36,972 nucleotides of DNA, taken from positions 1 to 36,972 of the forward strand of contig CALDDP010000249.1 in the NCBI GenBank assembly GCA_937936805.1, in the 5' to 3' direction. This stretch comes from an uncultured Gammaproteobacteria bacterium (GTDB lineage: Bacteria > Pseudomonadota > Gammaproteobacteria > GCA-001735895). A model generated the notes under the pieces. That model was given only the letters and a program-made list of their open reading frames with translations. It ran no database searches and was not told the DNA's origin. The translations under genes were made by a program, and so were the position numbers. Below, piece by piece: positions 30,579 through 36,972 of the stretch; position 1 is the stretch's first letter, and every line of letters starts with the position of its first letter.

Positions 30579-30613
30579 TCTTCTCCGTAAACAACCAACT
30601 ACGGAGATTATTG

Positions 30614-31072
30614 ATGAAACTTTCGAAGCGTATAATTGCTGCCGCTTTACTTATCGTTGGCAGTTCCGGTGCAGTATATGCATTCAGCAAACATAACGAC
30701 TGGGGTATGTCCCCCGAGGAAAAGGTCGAGTTCGTGACCGATCGGGTCACCAGCAAGCTGGACCTTGACAGTAAGCAACAGCAAAATTTTGCCGAACTGG
30801 CCACTACCGTTGCCCGAATCATGCAGGATGCCAGGATTACAAAGGCTCAGGACCTTACTGAAATTGAGAGCCTGTTACAGCAGCCCAGTTTCAACCAGGC
30901 CCGGGCGCTTGAACTGGTGCAGCAGAAAACCAGTATGATCAACGAAAAGGCCCCTCTCGTTATTGCGTCACTGGCGGTGTTTCTCGACTCGTTGAGCGCA
31001 GAGCAAAAGCAGCAACTGGAGAAGTTTTTGCAGCATCGGCACAAACACTCCCGCCATGGCGACAGTGATTAA
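30614..31072 (+). CDS. Spy/CpxP-like periplasmic protein
   Basis: This is a 152-residue secreted protein. The signal peptide is clear (KRIIAAALLIVGSSGAVYA, cleavage near residue 23). The mature part is all-helical with LTxxQ-like motifs (LDLDSKQQQNFAEL and LSAEQKQQLEKFL), as in Spy and CpxP, which act as periplasmic chaperone and kinase inhibitor. The C-terminal tail is His-rich (HRHKHSRHGD), so metal binding is possible. ATG 30614 has GGAG seven bases upstream; a TTG just before it is not needed. It is first in the block with a response regulator and kinase, the same order as cpxP with cpxRA but on one strand. Confidence 0.82.
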   Translation: MKLSKRIIAAALLIVGSSGAVYAFSKHNDWGMSPEEKVEFVTDRVTSKLDLDSKQQQNFAELATTVARIMQDARITKAQDLTEIESLLQQPSFNQARALELVQQKTSMINEKAPLVIASLAVFLDSLSAEQKQQLEKFLQHRHKHSRHGDSD

Positions 31073-31088
31073 ACCCGAGCATTACCCG

Positions 31089-31119
31089 CAACGCGACTTC
31101 TCAAGCAGGAGTCGCGTTG
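31089..31119 (+). other. stem-loop between the Spy-like gene and the response regulator
   Basis: CAACGCGACT (31089-31098) and AGTCGCGTTG (31110-31119) pair perfectly over 10 bases with an 11-base loop. No T-run follows, so full termination is unlikely. It may limit readthrough or protect the upstream message, which would give more Spy-like protein than regulator. Confidence 0.55.
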
Positions 31120-31152
31120 TACAATGCAGGTTTAAATCACTCGGGCAACCGA

Positions 31153-31818
31153 ATGCGTAAATTATTACTAATAGATGACGACGAACGACTAGCTGAATCA
31201 CTGCGGCAGTATTTCGCCAAATTCGAATTGGAGCTAGATAATGAAACTCACCCCCTCAAGGCGATTGAACTCATCAAGCTGCATAGCTTTGACCTGATTG
31301 TTCTCGATGTGATGTTGCCTGAAATCGATGGCTTCGAGACCTGCCGCCGGATCCGGCAATTTAGCGAAATTCCGATTGTAATGTTGACCGCGCGTGGCGA
31401 AGTTATGGATCGGGTGGTTGGACTGGAGCTTGGTGCGGATGACTACCTGCCCAAACCCTTCGAACCACGCGAACTGGTGGTACGCATCCAGAATATCTTC
31501 AAGCGCGCCAGCACGGTAAATACGAACAGCGTTTACCGTCTGGGCGAGTTACGGCTGGATGTTGCCCGCAAGCAGCTAAAGCGTAATGACGTCGAAGTGG
31601 CCACTACCGCAGCCGAGTTTGGCCTGCTGTGTTTACTGGCACAAAATCAGGATCGCGTGTTATCGCGGGACGAAATTATGCAGGCTTTGCGCGGTCTGGA
31701 TGCGGATATTTACAGTCGCGCAATCGATGTACTGGTAAGCCGGCTCAGGCATAAGTTGCAGCAACCTGAATTGATTCGCACGGTGCGAGGACAGGGATAT
31801 CAGCTGGTGAATCGATAA
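31153..31818 (+). CDS. OmpR-family response regulator, CpxR-like
   Basis: This 221-residue regulator has an N-terminal receiver domain with acidic pocket (IDDDE at 7-11), phosphoacceptor Asp52 in LIVLDVMLPEIDG, Thr in MLTARGE and Lys in LPKPFEP. A winged helix-turn-helix follows from about residue 125 (ATTAAEFGLLCLLAQNQDRVLSRDEIM, then SRAIDVLVSRLRHKL). The frame is open to 31117, but ATG 31153 fits the family start MRKLLLIDDD. It overlaps the kinase gene by one base. Probable targets include the GTAAC repeats before the Spy-like gene, giving an autoregulated envelope-stress circuit. RstA-like identity is the main alternative. Confidence 0.92.
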   Translation: MRKLLLIDDDERLAESLRQYFAKFELELDNETHPLKAIELIKLHSFDLIVLDVMLPEIDGFETCRRIRQFSEIPIVMLTARGEVMDRVVGLELGADDYLPKPFEPRELVVRIQNIFKRASTVNTNSVYRLGELRLDVARKQLKRNDVEVATTAAEFGLLCLLAQNQDRVLSRDEIMQALRGLDADIYSRAIDVLVSRLRHKLQQPELIRTVRGQGYQLVNR

Positions 31819-33122
31819 TGTGGGATTACTTGCAAGCCAGGTGGCAAAGCCTGATCTTCAGGTTACTGTTTTATTTTTTGATTTCGAGCCTGGCGCTGGC
31901 AGTGATACTCGCCACCAGTTTTGCACAGCGTTTGAAACCGCATGTACATAACGAAATCCTGCCTAATGTCGCGCGCTATATCGACTACCTAATCGATGAT
32001 ATCGGCAACCCACCAGACCTGCCGACAGCCCGGAAACTGGCGAATGAGTTGCCGTTTGAAATCAGAATCGAGGGCAGGGGAGTAGACTGGGCCTCCAGCC
32101 CGAAACTGAAGGCGATCGACAGTTATGATTTCAAACCTGCACCCCGTCCTTACGATGACGTCTACTTCAGCCATCATAGAAGGGATCAATACCTGTTGAT
32201 CCAGGAACAGGGATACCGGTATTTATTTGCCGTCGATAACAGTTTTCGCCAGGGTGCCGAGCGTCGCCATTGGGTGTTATTTGTAGCGCTCGGTTCGGTT
32301 CTGTTTTTGCTTTACCTGGCGATCAGAAGAATGTTCAGACCGATTGCTGCGATCTCCAGCCAGGTAAAAAAGATAGGCGAGGGGGATCTTACGCAAACAG
32401 TCCAACTGCAGGGCAAAGGGGAACTGGCATTGCTAGCTACCGGAATCAACCGAATGGCGGCACAGATCAAGGCAATGCTGGAGAGTAAATCCGGTTTGCT
32501 GCTGGCGATAAGTCATGAACTGCGCTCACCAATGACGCGGATGCGCGTCAACCTCGAGCTACTCGAGGAGAGCGAAATTCAACAAAAGCTGATCGACGAT
32601 ATCCGTGAGATGGAAACGCTTGTCGCGGCCATACTGGAATCTGAAAAGCTAAACAGCAGCCATGCACCGTTAAACTTGAGTCGTTGCGAACTGCTCAACC
32701 TTATCGAGGAAGTCGTGCAGCACCATCCATGTCGTGATCGCATCAAGACCAGCATGTCTCCGATTGAACTCGATGTGGATCAGTTACGCATTAAACTACT
32801 GATAAAAAATCTGCTTGATAACGCCTGCCATTATTCTGGCGACGAGCAGAACCTGGTTGATGTCAGCCTGCGCCATGACCAGAAATTTGCCCTGATCGAG
32901 GTCCAGGACAGGGGCATTGGAATCGCGGCGGAGGATATACCGCGGCTAACCGAAGCATTTTATCGATCGGATCACGCAAGGCAGCGGGATACGGGGGGTT
33001 ATGGTCTCGGCTTGTATTTGTGCAAGCTTGTTGTCGAGGCTCATGGTGGACATATTATCATCGATAGTGAACCCGGCAGGGGTACCAGAATAAGCGTCAA
33101 ACTTCCGTTTGATAATAGTTGA
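31818..33122 (+). CDS. sensor histidine kinase, CpxA-like
   Basis: This is a 434-residue inner-membrane kinase. Transmembrane segments are at about 12-34 and 152-169, enclosing a periplasmic sensor of about 115 residues. A HAMP domain covers about 170-222. The dimerisation helix holds the phosphoacceptor His233 in LAISHELRSPMTRMR. ATP-lid motifs are NLLDNACHYS (N box), DRGIGIAAEDIPRLTEAFYRSD (G1/F) and GGYGLGLYLCK (G2). The ATG overlaps the regulator stop. The periplasmic part contains a short basic/His segment (SHHRRDQ). With the Spy-like protein upstream, sensing of misfolded envelope proteins or metal is plausible. The TGA stop (33120-33122) lies inside the IscR-type operator of the next operon. 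Confidence 0.92.
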   Translation: MWDYLQARWQSLIFRLLFYFLISSLALAVILATSFAQRLKPHVHNEILPNVARYIDYLIDDIGNPPDLPTARKLANELPFEIRIEGRGVDWASSPKLKAIDSYDFKPAPRPYDDVYFSHHRRDQYLLIQEQGYRYLFAVDNSFRQGAERRHWVLFVALGSVLFLLYLAIRRMFRPIAAISSQVKKIGEGDLTQTVQLQGKGELALLATGINRMAAQIKAMLESKSGLLLAISHELRSPMTRMRVNLELLEESEIQQKLIDDIREMETLVAAILESEKLNSSHAPLNLSRCELLNLIEEVVQHHPCRDRIKTSMSPIELDVDQLRIKLLIKNLLDNACHYSGDEQNLVDVSLRHDQKFALIEVQDRGIGIAAEDIPRLTEAFYRSDHARQRDTGGYGLGLYLCKLVVEAHGGHIIIDSEPGRGTRISVKLPFDNS

Positions 33123-33146
33123 CCATTTTAGTCAGGATTGTATACT
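33115..33146 (+). promoter_or_regulatory. iscR promoter with type 1 IscR site
   Basis: TTGACC (33119-33124) and TATACT (33141-33146) with a 16-base spacer form a strong sigma70 promoter. Bases 33115-33139 match the E. coli type 1 IscR consensus (ATASYYGAC, central AT-rich part, YAGTCRRSTAT) at 22 of 25 positions; the mismatches are one in the middle and two near the right end. The site covers the -35 and most of the spacer, the position used for autorepression in E. coli. It also overlaps the last codons of the kinase gene. Confidence 0.8.
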
Positions 33147-33175: not shown

Positions 33176-33634
33176 ATGCGACTATCCACTAAAAGCCGTT
33201 ATGCAGTGACATCACTGCTCGACCTGGTAATGCATTCCGACCATGGTCCTGTCTCGCTCGCCGACATTTCCATCCGGCAGGGCATTTCACTCTCGTACCT
33301 GGAACAGTTGTTTGCCAAAATGCGGCGCAACAAGCTGGTAGTGAGCACCCGTGGCCCGGGTGGCGGTTACAGCCTGGGCGAGTCACCTGACCAGGTCTGC
33401 ATTGCGGATGTGATCAACGCGGTCGATGAGGAAATGCAGGTCGCCGACAAGGATGTAAGCAACGGCTCTCCGAGTTACGAGCCCTGTTTGACCGAGCAGT
33501 TGTGGCAGGAGCTGAGCACTGAAATTGAAAATTATCTGACCACGATTTCGCTCGCCGATATGATGCGTAATAACGAAGTACAGGAACTTTCCCGTGCGCA
33601 TGATTTGCGCCAGAAGCAACCCAAGCTTATTTAA
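33176..33634 (+). CDS. iscR: IscR-like Rrf2 regulator lacking most Fe-S ligands
   Basis: This 152-residue Rrf2-family regulator leads the isc operon. The winged helix is close to E. coli IscR (MRLSTKSRYAVTSLLDL, LADISIRQGISLSYLEQLFAKMRRN, VSTRGPGGGYSLG), including Glu43, which matters for site selection. It aligns with E. coli IscR without gaps up to residue 110, so positions compare directly. Of the [2Fe-2S] ligands C92, C98, C104 and H107, only C104 is kept; the others are K92, S98 and E107. Cluster binding in the normal way therefore looks impossible, and it may act as a permanent apo-form. ATG 33176 has no clear Shine-Dalgarno sequence. The C-terminal tail is shorter and lysine-rich. Confidence 0.9.
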   Translation: MRLSTKSRYAVTSLLDLVMHSDHGPVSLADISIRQGISLSYLEQLFAKMRRNKLVVSTRGPGGGYSLGESPDQVCIADVINAVDEEMQVADKDVSNGSPSYEPCLTEQLWQELSTEIENYLTTISLADMMRNNEVQELSRAHDLRQKQPKLI

Positions 33635-33638
33635 ACCG

Positions 33639-34787
33639 ATGCCCGTTTACCTCGACCATAACGCTACTTCACCGATGCACCCGGAAGTCGTGGATGCCAT
33701 GTTGCCGTTCCTGCAGAATCCGACCGGCAATCCATCGAGCCTGCACAGCTATGGTCGTATGGCGCGCTCAGCAATTGAATCGGCGCGCGCGGAAGTCGCA
33801 GTCCTGTTGGGCTGCTCGAGCCAGGCCGTGATTTTCACCTCGGGCGGAACCGAGGCGAATAACCTGCTGTTAAAAGGATATGTCGATAGCAGCATCGGTC
33901 GACCCATTGTCAGTACTGAAATAGAACATCCCAGCATTCTCGAGCCACTCAGGCAGCTGCAGGCTGAAGGGCAGGCCGTGGTTTTACTGAAACCTGATCA
34001 CGACGGGCGTATCGACCTGCAGTCGGCCAGCCCGGTTCTGGCCAGTGCCAATGCGCAATTGTTATCGATTATTTATGCCAATAACGAAACCGGTGTAATC
34101 CAGCCGGTTGCCGAGCTTGCAGCGATGGTCGATCGCGATTCCTGCCTCGTGCATAGTGATGCCACCCAGGCCGTAGGTAAAATACCGCTCGACATGGCGC
34201 AGCTGGATATCGATTCCCTCAGTTTCTCGGCCCACAAGCTACGCGGACCACAGGGTGTGGGGGCACTGATTGTCAATCGCAAACCGAGGAATATTCTGAT
34301 CAGCGGTGGGCACCAGGAAAATAATCTTCGCGGCGGTACCGAGAATGTCGCCGGGATTGTGGGATTAGGTAAGGCGGCGCGACTTGCACGACTTGAAATG
34401 GAGCAGAAAAAACACCACCTTACTGAACTGCGAGATCTTTTTGAAATCAGGCTGGCCGCCATTCCGGGCAGCGTCGTTTTCGGCCAGCAGGCACCACGAC
34501 TACCGAACACGACCTATTTTTCGTTGCCCTATTATCATGGCGAAACCCTGTTGATGGAGCTGGATCGGGCTGGTTTCGCTCTTTCCAGCGGATCGGCCTG
34601 TCAAAGCGCCGTGACCGCTCCCAGCCACGTACTCAAGGCAATGGACGTCGACGACAATCTCGCTTTAAACGCAGTTAGAGTAAGTTTTGGCATGAATAAC
34701 AGCCTGCAGGAAGTCGAAATGTTAGCTACGAAACTTCAGCAATTAGTAAACAAGTTGCCCACGGTAATCCGCCAGGCAGCGGTGTAG
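33639..34787 (+). CDS. cysteine desulfurase, IscS/NifS-like, without the IscS tail
   Basis: This 382-residue PLP enzyme takes sulfur from cysteine as a persulfide on its own Cys. Motifs are [24 protein letters not shown], the PLP lysine K200 in [12 protein letters not shown], and the catalytic Cys321 in [10 protein letters not shown]. coli IscS is 404 residues and ends with a tail that contacts IscU; this protein stops about 20 residues earlier, and its identity to IscS is modest. It is more like the general NifS/IscS-like class I group. ATG 33639 follows the iscR stop by four bases without a ribosome site of its own, so coupling is likely. The next gene is iscA, not iscU. Confidence 0.9.
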
Positions 34788-34797
34788 AGAGATACAA

Positions 34798-35121
34798 ATG
34801 GCAATCCATCTTAGCGATATTGCAGCATCCCGAGTGCAGCATTTTTTAGCCAACCGCGGCAAAGGCCTCGGCTTGCGTCTAGGTGTCAAAACTACCGGCT
34901 GCTCCGGGCTCGCCTATGTCATCGAATTTGTCGATGAGGTTCAGGATGACGATGAAGTGTTCGAGACCAAGGGAGTCAAGGTTGTGGTTGACAGGAAGAG
35001 CCTTGTTTTTCTAGATGGTACCGAGGTCGATTTTGCCAAGGTCGGGCTCAATGAAGGATTTCAGTTCAAGAATCCCAATGCCAAGGATGCCTGTGGCTGC
35101 GGCGAAAGCTTTACCATCTAA
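34798..35121 (+). CDS. iscA: iron-sulfur cluster assembly protein IscA
   Basis: This 107-residue A-type carrier delivers Fe-S clusters, particularly 4Fe-4S, to target enzymes. The three conserved cysteines are at 35 (TTGCSGLAY), 99 and 101 (CGCGESF), exactly the family spacing. [16 protein letters not shown] is the usual central block. It starts 10 bases after the desulfurase stop, in the position where iscU would normally come first. Confidence 0.96.
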
Positions 35122-35139: not shown

Positions 35140-35679
35140 ATGCAGTCCCCGGACCTTAGCCAGACTTATTTCGAGCTATTTGGAATAAACCCTGCTTTCG
35201 ATATCGATTGCAGCCGTTTACATGCCGAACAGCAGCGCCTGCAGGCTGCCTATCATCCCGACCGATACGTCAGCGCCAGTGAACACGATAAACGGGTTTC
35301 GGTGCAGGTAGCATCCTGGGTTAACCAGGCCTATGAAACGCTGCAGGATCCGGTAAAGCGTTCTCGTTATCTGCTGGAAATCAGTGGGGCCGATATTCCT
35401 GATGATTCGACGACAACCTCCGATACTGAATTTTTAATGGAGCAAATCGAATTGCGGGAGCAGGTCGAGTCCTGCCGGCATGGAGAAGGTGGTCTGCAGC
35501 GAAGTTACCAGATCGAAACACAGCTGGCGCACCGAGCAGACGAACTGGCCAGGGAATTCACTTCTCACTTTACAGCTGCCGAGCTTGACAAGGCCGTCGC
35601 CAGCAGCCGAAAAATGCAGTTCCTGCAGCGTATCCAGCAACAGTTATCCGAGCTTCAGTTCGAACTGGAGGAATCCTGA
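35140..35679 (+). CDS. hscB: Fe-S biogenesis J-domain co-chaperone HscB
   Basis: HscB is a J-protein that brings the IscU scaffold to HscA and stimulates its ATPase. The 179-residue protein has an N-terminal J domain with the HPD motif at 39-41 (AAYHPDRY), the linker segment [23 protein letters not shown], and a C-terminal three-helix region ([19 protein letters not shown]) that holds the IscU-binding face in E. coli. The family length is about 170. It overlaps the hscA ATG by one base. Confidence 0.94.
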
Positions 35680-36972
35680 TGGCCCTGCTGCAGATATCTG
35701 AACCGGGTGAAGCAACCGCCCCCCATGCGCATCGCCACTCAGCGGGAATCGATCTCGGCACGACCAACTCGTTAGTGGCGACGCTGCGCAGTGGCGAGGC
35801 AGTTTGTTTACCCGATGAAAATGGGCGCAGTTTGTTGCCATCGATAGTCAACTTCGGTGACGCGCAAACCCTGGTGGGATACGAGGCGCAGGCGCTGCAA
35901 ATCAGCGATCCGCTGAACAGCATCGCTTCGATCAAGCGACTGATGGGTAGGGCCCGGGAAGACGTGATTCAACTTGGTGATGCCGTCCCCTATGAATTTG
36001 TTACCAGCGAAGGAAGCAACGTGCCGAGAATCCGTACTCGTAAGGGTGATCTGAGTGCGGTGGAAATATCTGCCGAAATTCTCAAAACATTGGCCTATCG
36101 CGCTACTCAAAGTATTGGCGGTGACCTGGACGGCGTCGTCATCACGGTACCGGCTTACTTTGACGATGCGCAACGCCAGGCAACACGCGACGCGGCGACC
36201 CTGGCCGGGTTAAATCTATTCCGCCTGTTGAATGAGCCCACCGCGGCTGCTGTCGCATACGGCCTCGACCGGGACACTGATGACCTGATTGCCGTTTATG
36301 ATCTCGGTGGTGGTACCTTCGACATCTCGATTCTGCGGCTTAACAGGGGCGTGTTTGAAGTCCTGGCAACCGGGGGAGATTCATCGCTGGGTGGCGATGA
36401 TATGGATCATGCGCTGGCAGAGTGGATCATCAGGCAGGGCGGGTTTGCCGATATCGATGCCAGAATGGCGCGCAATATCCTGCTGGCTGCTCGGCAGGCC
36501 AAGGAAAACCTCACTACGACCGCATCGGCCGATATTCTGATCGACTATCAGCAACAGCAGTGGAGTGGAACTATCGATCGACACCAGTTCGACGAATTAG
36601 TACGCCCACTGATCCAGAAAACCCTGACTGCCTGCAGGCGAGCTTTGCGAGATGCCGGAATCTCTAAAAACGATATCGGCCAGGTGGTCATGGTCGGAGG
36701 TTCGACCCGCGTACCTCTGGTGCAGTCGACCATAGCCGAGTTTTTCGAACGTGAACCCATGTGCGATCTTGATCCCGATAAGGTAGTCGCGATCGGCGCC
36801 GCGATACAGGCGGATATCCTGGCTGGAAACAAGCCAGACAGCGACATGCTCCTGCTCGACGTGCTGCCGTTATCGCTCGGCATAGAAACCATGGGTGGAT
36901 TGAGCGAAAAGATCATCAACCGGAATACCGCCATTCCGGTGGCCAGGGGGCAGGACTTCACCACCTTCAAGG
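35679..36972 (+). CDS. hscA: Fe-S chaperone HscA (Hsp70 type), 3' end outside window
   Basis: The reading frame is open from ATG 35679 to the last base, giving 431 codons of an expected roughly 620. The Hsp70 nucleotide-binding domain is complete: [12 protein letters not shown] near 29, [52 protein letters not shown], and [12 protein letters not shown]. The start of the substrate domain is visible ([18 protein letters not shown]). The N-terminal extension before the ATPase core ([17 protein letters not shown]) is typical of HscA as opposed to DnaK. HscA uses ATP to act on IscU bound through its LPPVK motif; no IscU is encoded in the visible operon. Confidence 0.95.

Follow-up and report, generated by a model that had tools for sequence, protein, structure and literature searches.

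Introduction

In E. coli, type 1 operator sites are bound by holo-IscR alone (PMC5411485). The residue E43 is thought to clash with the TT half-site, and an E43A protein binds type 1 sites without a cluster (PMC5411485). In P. aeruginosa, an IscR devoid of the ligand cysteines fails to bind the isc promoter (PMC6599224). A ligand-poor IscR is already known from the Rhodobacteraceae (R. sphaeroides, PMC4618611; D. shibae, 7zpn), where it heads an isc-suf operon, all canonical cysteines are gone and the essential Cys lies elsewhere, at position 142. In the laboratory mutants IscR(C92A) and IscR-3CA, the canonical cluster cannot form and the DNA-reading residues are intact. CymR, a cofactor-free Rrf2 regulator of cysteine metabolism, acts without an Fe-S cluster altogether.

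In this study, we analyzed IscR2, a ligand-poor IscR paralog encoded in the window, which is the whole stretch of 36,972 nucleotides from an uncultured gammaproteobacterium. IscR2 resembles IscR of E. coli and P. aeruginosa in its fold, in its recognition-helix and wing residues, in an ungapped alignment over 141 residues (with the E. coli protein), and in the place of its gene, which opens an isc operon behind a type 1 promoter site. It differs from them in the loss of three of the four ligands, in an operon without iscU, and in the presence of a second, ligand-complete IscR in most relatives. With the Rhodobacteraceae proteins it shares the position at the head of Fe-S assembly genes without the canonical ligand set. 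Unlike them, however, it keeps C104, shows the replacements K/R92 and E107, and is accompanied by a normal paralog in the relatives. The aligned D. shibae IscR has Ser at 104 and Asn at 107, and the window protein has no Cys near position 142, where the Rhodobacteraceae single-Cys IscR has its essential and only Cys (in PCPAV). The laboratory mutants are like IscR2 in their DNA-reading residues and in their inability to form the canonical cluster, whereas the replacements in IscR2 are natural, selected and fixed, and its own promoter carries a site of the type that the mutants do not bind. CymR shares the Rrf2 fold but is far more distant, with about 30% identity in the structural alignment.

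Results

The features of the locus are as follows.

31117 to 33122, plus strand: genes of an OmpR-type response regulator (31117-31818) and a histidine kinase (31818-33122), which precede iscR2 in most loci of the genus (ORFs, profiles, relatives' loci)
33115 to 33139, plus strand: predicted type 1 IscR site, three mismatches to the 25-bp consensus, kept in the 36 loci read (consensus match, conservation)
33119 to 33146, plus strand: promoter-like TTGACC-16 bp-TATACT, with the -35 inside the type 1 site and overlapping the kinase stop codon (sequence)
33176 to 33634, plus strand: iscR2, ligand-poor IscR paralog of 152 aa with K92, S98, C104 and E107 (ORF, orthologue alignment, phmmer)
33639 to 34787, plus strand: iscS2, NifS/IscS-like cysteine desulfurase of 382 aa, an orthologue of the additional desulfurase found in other isc operons of gammaproteobacteria (tree, profiles)
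34798 to 35121, plus strand: iscA (ORF, profile)
35140 to 35679, plus strand: hscB (ORF, profile)
35679 to 36972, plus strand: hscA, truncated by the contig end, with fdx next in relatives (ORF, relatives' loci)

The iscR2 reading frame starts at the ATG at 33176 and runs over 152 codons to 33634. Residues 1-141 of its product aligned with residues 1-141 of E. coli IscR without a single gap (phmmer). The residue-for-residue match up to about residue 110 given in the initial annotation was therefore conservative. The annotated ligand changes were borne out by the same alignment: C92 is replaced by Lys (codon 33449-33451), C98 by Ser (33467-33469) and H107 by Glu (33494-33496), and C104 (33485-33487) is the sole ligand left. 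The codon of C75 is located at 33398-33400.

IscR2 scored 121.4 bits against the Rrf2 profile PF02082 (cut-off 30) and 132.9 bits against the Rrf2 profile TIGR00738 (curated cut-off 73.3), which places it in this family. Against the IscR equivalog TIGR02010 it scored 168.5 bits, below the NCBI cut-off of 207.55; the ligand-complete IscR1 of one relative, with 201 bits, was also narrowly below the cut-off. The canonical set C92/C98/C104/H107 is represented by C104 alone in all 36 orthologues. Because of the ligand set and the equivalog score, IscR2 does not belong among the standard IscR proteins. Its gene holds the place that is typical of iscR, at the head of an isc operon behind a type 1 site, in this case an operon lacking iscU. 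Judging from the sequence, IscR2 would work like an Rrf2 regulator of isc genes.

The AlphaFold model of IscR2 has a mean pLDDT of 83.7. Residues with low pLDDT form blocks over 81-110, and those at 91-93 are below 50; the matching region is disordered in apo-IscR (PMC5411485). The solved folds nearest to the model belong to E. coli IscR, followed by T. potens IscR and, lower down, by CymR, the nearest structures being 4hf1, 4hf0, 4hf2 and 4chu. S40, E43, Q44 and R59 are invariant in both IscR2 and IscR1, and R59 is taken here to be one of the DNA-reading residues of IscR. The other three residues are DNA contacts of IscR (PMC5411485).

IscR2 was found in 37 of the 41 genomes of the order, all of which belong to one family with three genera; the carriers include the Olavius algarvensis Gamma 3 endosymbiont (L040). 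Only one of the four genomes without IscR2 (G025) is more than 90% complete. In a tree of 123 IscR proteins, all 36 variant rows formed one clade with 100/100 support. The stem of this clade is long, at about 1.0 change per column, and its sister group was therefore not placed by the tree, which contains no Rhodobacteraceae IscR. The group defined in the initial annotation by K92, S98 and E107 is thus a clade, but its definition is too narrow at two positions. Position 92 is Lys in 30 and Arg in 6 of the 36 proteins; position 98 is usually Ser but may also be Ala, Pro, Gly or Thr, and is never Cys. C104 and E107 are present in 36 of 36, and E102, P103, L105 and T106 are likewise invariant, whereas most of 94-100 is variable. 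Apart from C104, neither a Cys nor a His is conserved across the 36 proteins of the clade. C75, which had been put forward as a possible alternative ligand, is present in 27 of the 36; since Ser or Asn is found in the other 9, it cannot serve as a general second ligand in the order.

The median pairwise dN/dS of iscR2 was 0.077 over 97 pairs, indicating purifying selection. A sequencing error, which the initial annotation had named as a possible cause of the unusual residues, and gene decay are ruled out by the 36 orthologues together with this low dN/dS.

Among IscR proteins sampled from other gammaproteobacterial families, 38 of 40 keep all four ligands by our own count. Some other unusual proteins were seen as well. 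In another family, a second iscR (L140, 2883-3771, G076:C14) lies directly before iscU, behind type 1-like sites. Its product has none of the four ligands except a His-like position, and a complete isc operon (L126) is also present in that genome; the protein seems to be a ligand-poor IscR paralog that arose independently. In IscR-like proteins of Halothiobacillus (L089, 9001-9381; L100, 3386-3790), the ligand region is rearranged (DKSCPDKRNFAQ), and one IscR (L159, 323-718, G094) has three Cys residues and Lys in place of H107.

Throughout this order of marine gammaproteobacteria, the isc genes are divided between two loci, each with its own iscR in first place. The initial annotation mentioned neither this division nor the lack of iscU in the window locus. 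Locus A, present in most relatives, is iscR1-iscS1-iscU, and its IscR1 has the C-C-C-H ligands. Locus B, that of the window, is iscR2-iscS2-iscA-hscB-hscA-fdx and has no iscU. IscR1 is about 43-49% identical to the window IscR2, and all four ligands were present in each of the 19 IscR1 proteins read. By our own count, IscR2 occurs in 37, IscR1 in 35 and both in 32 of the 41 genomes. Many other gammaproteobacterial families have a single isc operon, which in several of them is iscR-iscSv-iscSc-iscU-iscA-hscB-hscA-fdx, with two desulfurases. Loci A and B together partition this operon. In a quick IscS tree with some weak branches, IscS2 grouped with the first and IscS1 with the second desulfurase of the two-desulfurase operons. 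The simplest history that these gene orders suggest is probably that a two-desulfurase isc operon was duplicated and that the copies lost complementary genes, iscR being kept in both. An alphaproteobacterial isc-suf origin of iscR2-iscS2 was not supported, since in the same quick tree, with its weak branches, IscS2 falls among the gammaproteobacterial extra desulfurases and the alphaproteobacterial sequences group apart. IscS2 seems to be dispensable in some lineages, because iscS2 is deleted or fragmented in three loci (L046, L062 and L049), where iscR2 and iscA-hscB-hscA stay.

The second, complete IscR that the initial annotation had proposed to search for is thus found in most relatives, as IscR1, but not in the incomplete genome of the window itself. 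The bin of the window (87% complete) contains neither IscU nor IscR1. In L108, the locus A that was read gene by gene, cysG follows the isc genes. SdhB and CysG, which flank locus A there, have no close match in the bin of the window (remote hits of 28% and 24% identity). Since these flanking genes are also missing, the absence of locus A is most likely an assembly gap in which the whole block is unassembled, and a true loss of IscU and IscR1 is unlikely.

Just upstream of iscR2, the sequence ATAGTTGACCATTTTAGTCAGGATT at 33115-33139 (site B) fits 22 of the 25 positions of the type 1 consensus as printed in PMC6599224; shuffled sequences gave no such match. Column identity over site B averages 91% in the 36 loci, compared with 54% in the 5' flank. 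Each of the two isc promoters has one or two predicted type 1 sites. At several iscR2 loci from the two smaller genera, another type 1-like site lies upstream. At locus A, a palindromic predicted type 1 site (site A) lies just 3' of a -10-like TATAAT. Site A is symmetric, with CT/CT half-sites, whereas site B is asymmetric, with TT/CT half-sites. In 31 genomes of the genus, a strict type 1 pattern matched almost solely at the two isc promoters, with a reversed control near zero, and 30 of the 31 contain at least one strict site.

The type 2 targets implied by the initial annotation found no such support. The conserved site before the iscR2 operon is of type 1, and type 2-like patterns showed no excess over the control in the window or in six genomes of the genus; a motif as weak as this one may, however, have drifted. 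No evident conserved type 2-like regulon emerged from a scan of the window or from two patterns run on these six genomes. SUF is the main type 2 target of apo-IscR in E. coli. As the SUF core proteins were absent from 23 of the 24 genus genomes searched, this target is missing, and the members of the genus appear to depend on ISC alone. P. aeruginosa likewise relies on ISC alone (PMC11559095). The sole SUF-bearing genome of the 24 has two SUFBD hits beside a NifU_N hit (G015:C39:19937-24420); these genes were either acquired or are a binning contaminant.

A CpxP-like protein, an OmpR-type response regulator and a histidine kinase (30611-33122) are encoded directly upstream of iscR2 in most loci of the genus and several of the family. 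The stop codon of the kinase gene lies inside the -35 of iscR2. It is possible that these neighbours link envelope stress to Fe-S assembly.

Discussion

The central puzzle of this locus is that IscR2 keeps S40, E43, Q44 and R59 and has lost three ligands, yet its own promoter carries a type 1 site. In E. coli and P. aeruginosa, IscR lacking its cluster fails to bind type 1 sites (PMC5411485, PMC6599224), so that any action of IscR2 at such sites would need a change in IscR2 itself. The cluster independence suggested in the initial annotation is well supported by the sequences as far as the canonical cluster is concerned, the loss of its ligands being fixed in the 36 orthologues. It is not proven, as a non-canonical cluster at C104 would still be allowed. 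IscR2 probably regulates without the usual cluster.

We tentatively favour the explanation that IscR2 belongs to a pair of regulators, in which IscR1 senses for both loci and IscR2 acts independently of the canonical cluster at the same type of site. IscR1 would likely sense the Fe-S status through its [2Fe-2S] cluster and repress both loci at type 1 sites, and its control of both isc promoters can be expected. IscR2 would act at the same site class as a level-set repressor or as a competitor on top of the sensing by IscR1, its amount rather than the occupancy of a cluster deciding the outcome. Among several options this one is favoured because both the DNA-reading residues and the promoter have been conserved and because the scans gave no type 2-like regulon. 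More speculatively, the pair of basic residue 92 and E107 may form a charge bridge across the former cluster space, in place of two ligands, and hold the loop; alternatively, K92 might correspond to the basic residue at 91 of normal IscR, displaced by one position. Such a bridge is not visible in the model, owing to the pLDDT below 50 at residues 91-93. The invariant C104 speaks against the regulator pair, for a protein acting entirely without a cluster would have no need of it, except for structural reasons.

This Cys would be accounted for if IscR2 still senses the Fe-S status by means of a non-canonical cluster bound via C104, which two subunits might share, for instance, or to which E107 might contribute an extra ligand. 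We consider this unlikely, while taking it seriously, since the cluster of R. sphaeroides IscR also depends on one Cys: the single-Cys protein gives an Fe-S spectrum that is abolished by C142A (PMC4618611). Both C104 and E107 are invariant, and IscR2 has retained E43 and a type 1 site at its promoter, features that it has in common with cluster-dependent IscR. In R. sphaeroides, however, the Cys that is essential occupies another position, and the IscR2 clade offers no other conserved Cys or His. In addition, the loop 93-100, which forms a cluster-stabilised turn in NsrR (PMC5411485), is mostly variable in IscR2.

It is also conceivable, if rather improbable, that IscR2 is a locked apo-IscR that acts at type 2-like promoters only, its amount being the signal and being set by IscR1 through the type 1 site. 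Clusterless E. coli IscR does regulate type 2 promoters (PMC12594620), and E43, which is invariant, makes contact with the CC bases in type 2 sites (PMC5411485); but the absence of SUF and of any type 2-like excess or evident regulon in the genomes scanned speaks against this reading. A role mainly as a partner of IscR1, by heterodimer formation or titration and with C104 serving at best as a thiol switch or in a structural capacity, seems very improbable to us. The coexistence of the two proteins in 32 of the 41 genomes and the asymmetry of site B beside the symmetric site A would agree with it, but E. coli IscR homodimers already bind asymmetric type 1 sites (PMC5411485). The regulator pair could further be elaborated into a circuit, which we regard as quite unlikely in this specific form: holo-IscR1 would run the chaperone and carrier half through site B, and cluster-free IscR2, with K/R92-E107 replacing the cluster, would cross-control the scaffold half through site A, whose CT/CT half-sites are free of the TT step by which apo-IscR is kept out.

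In the open-licence literature, where the names iscR1 and iscR2 mostly refer to unrelated ISCR mobile elements, we found no report of a ligand-poor IscR beside a normal IscR over a split isc system. The cluster-dependent reading of two site classes by IscR is still argued from apo structures and from comparison with NsrR. An order whose genomes combine two IscR proteins that share their DNA-reading residues, one ligand-complete and the other ligand-poor, with essentially two type 1 sites each, amounts to a natural separation-of-function experiment on this question. The arrangement also illustrates operon fission: paralogous regulators have come to control complementary halves of what is apparently the sole Fe-S assembly pathway. 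It cautions, too, that cluster sensing is not implied by the annotation name IscR.
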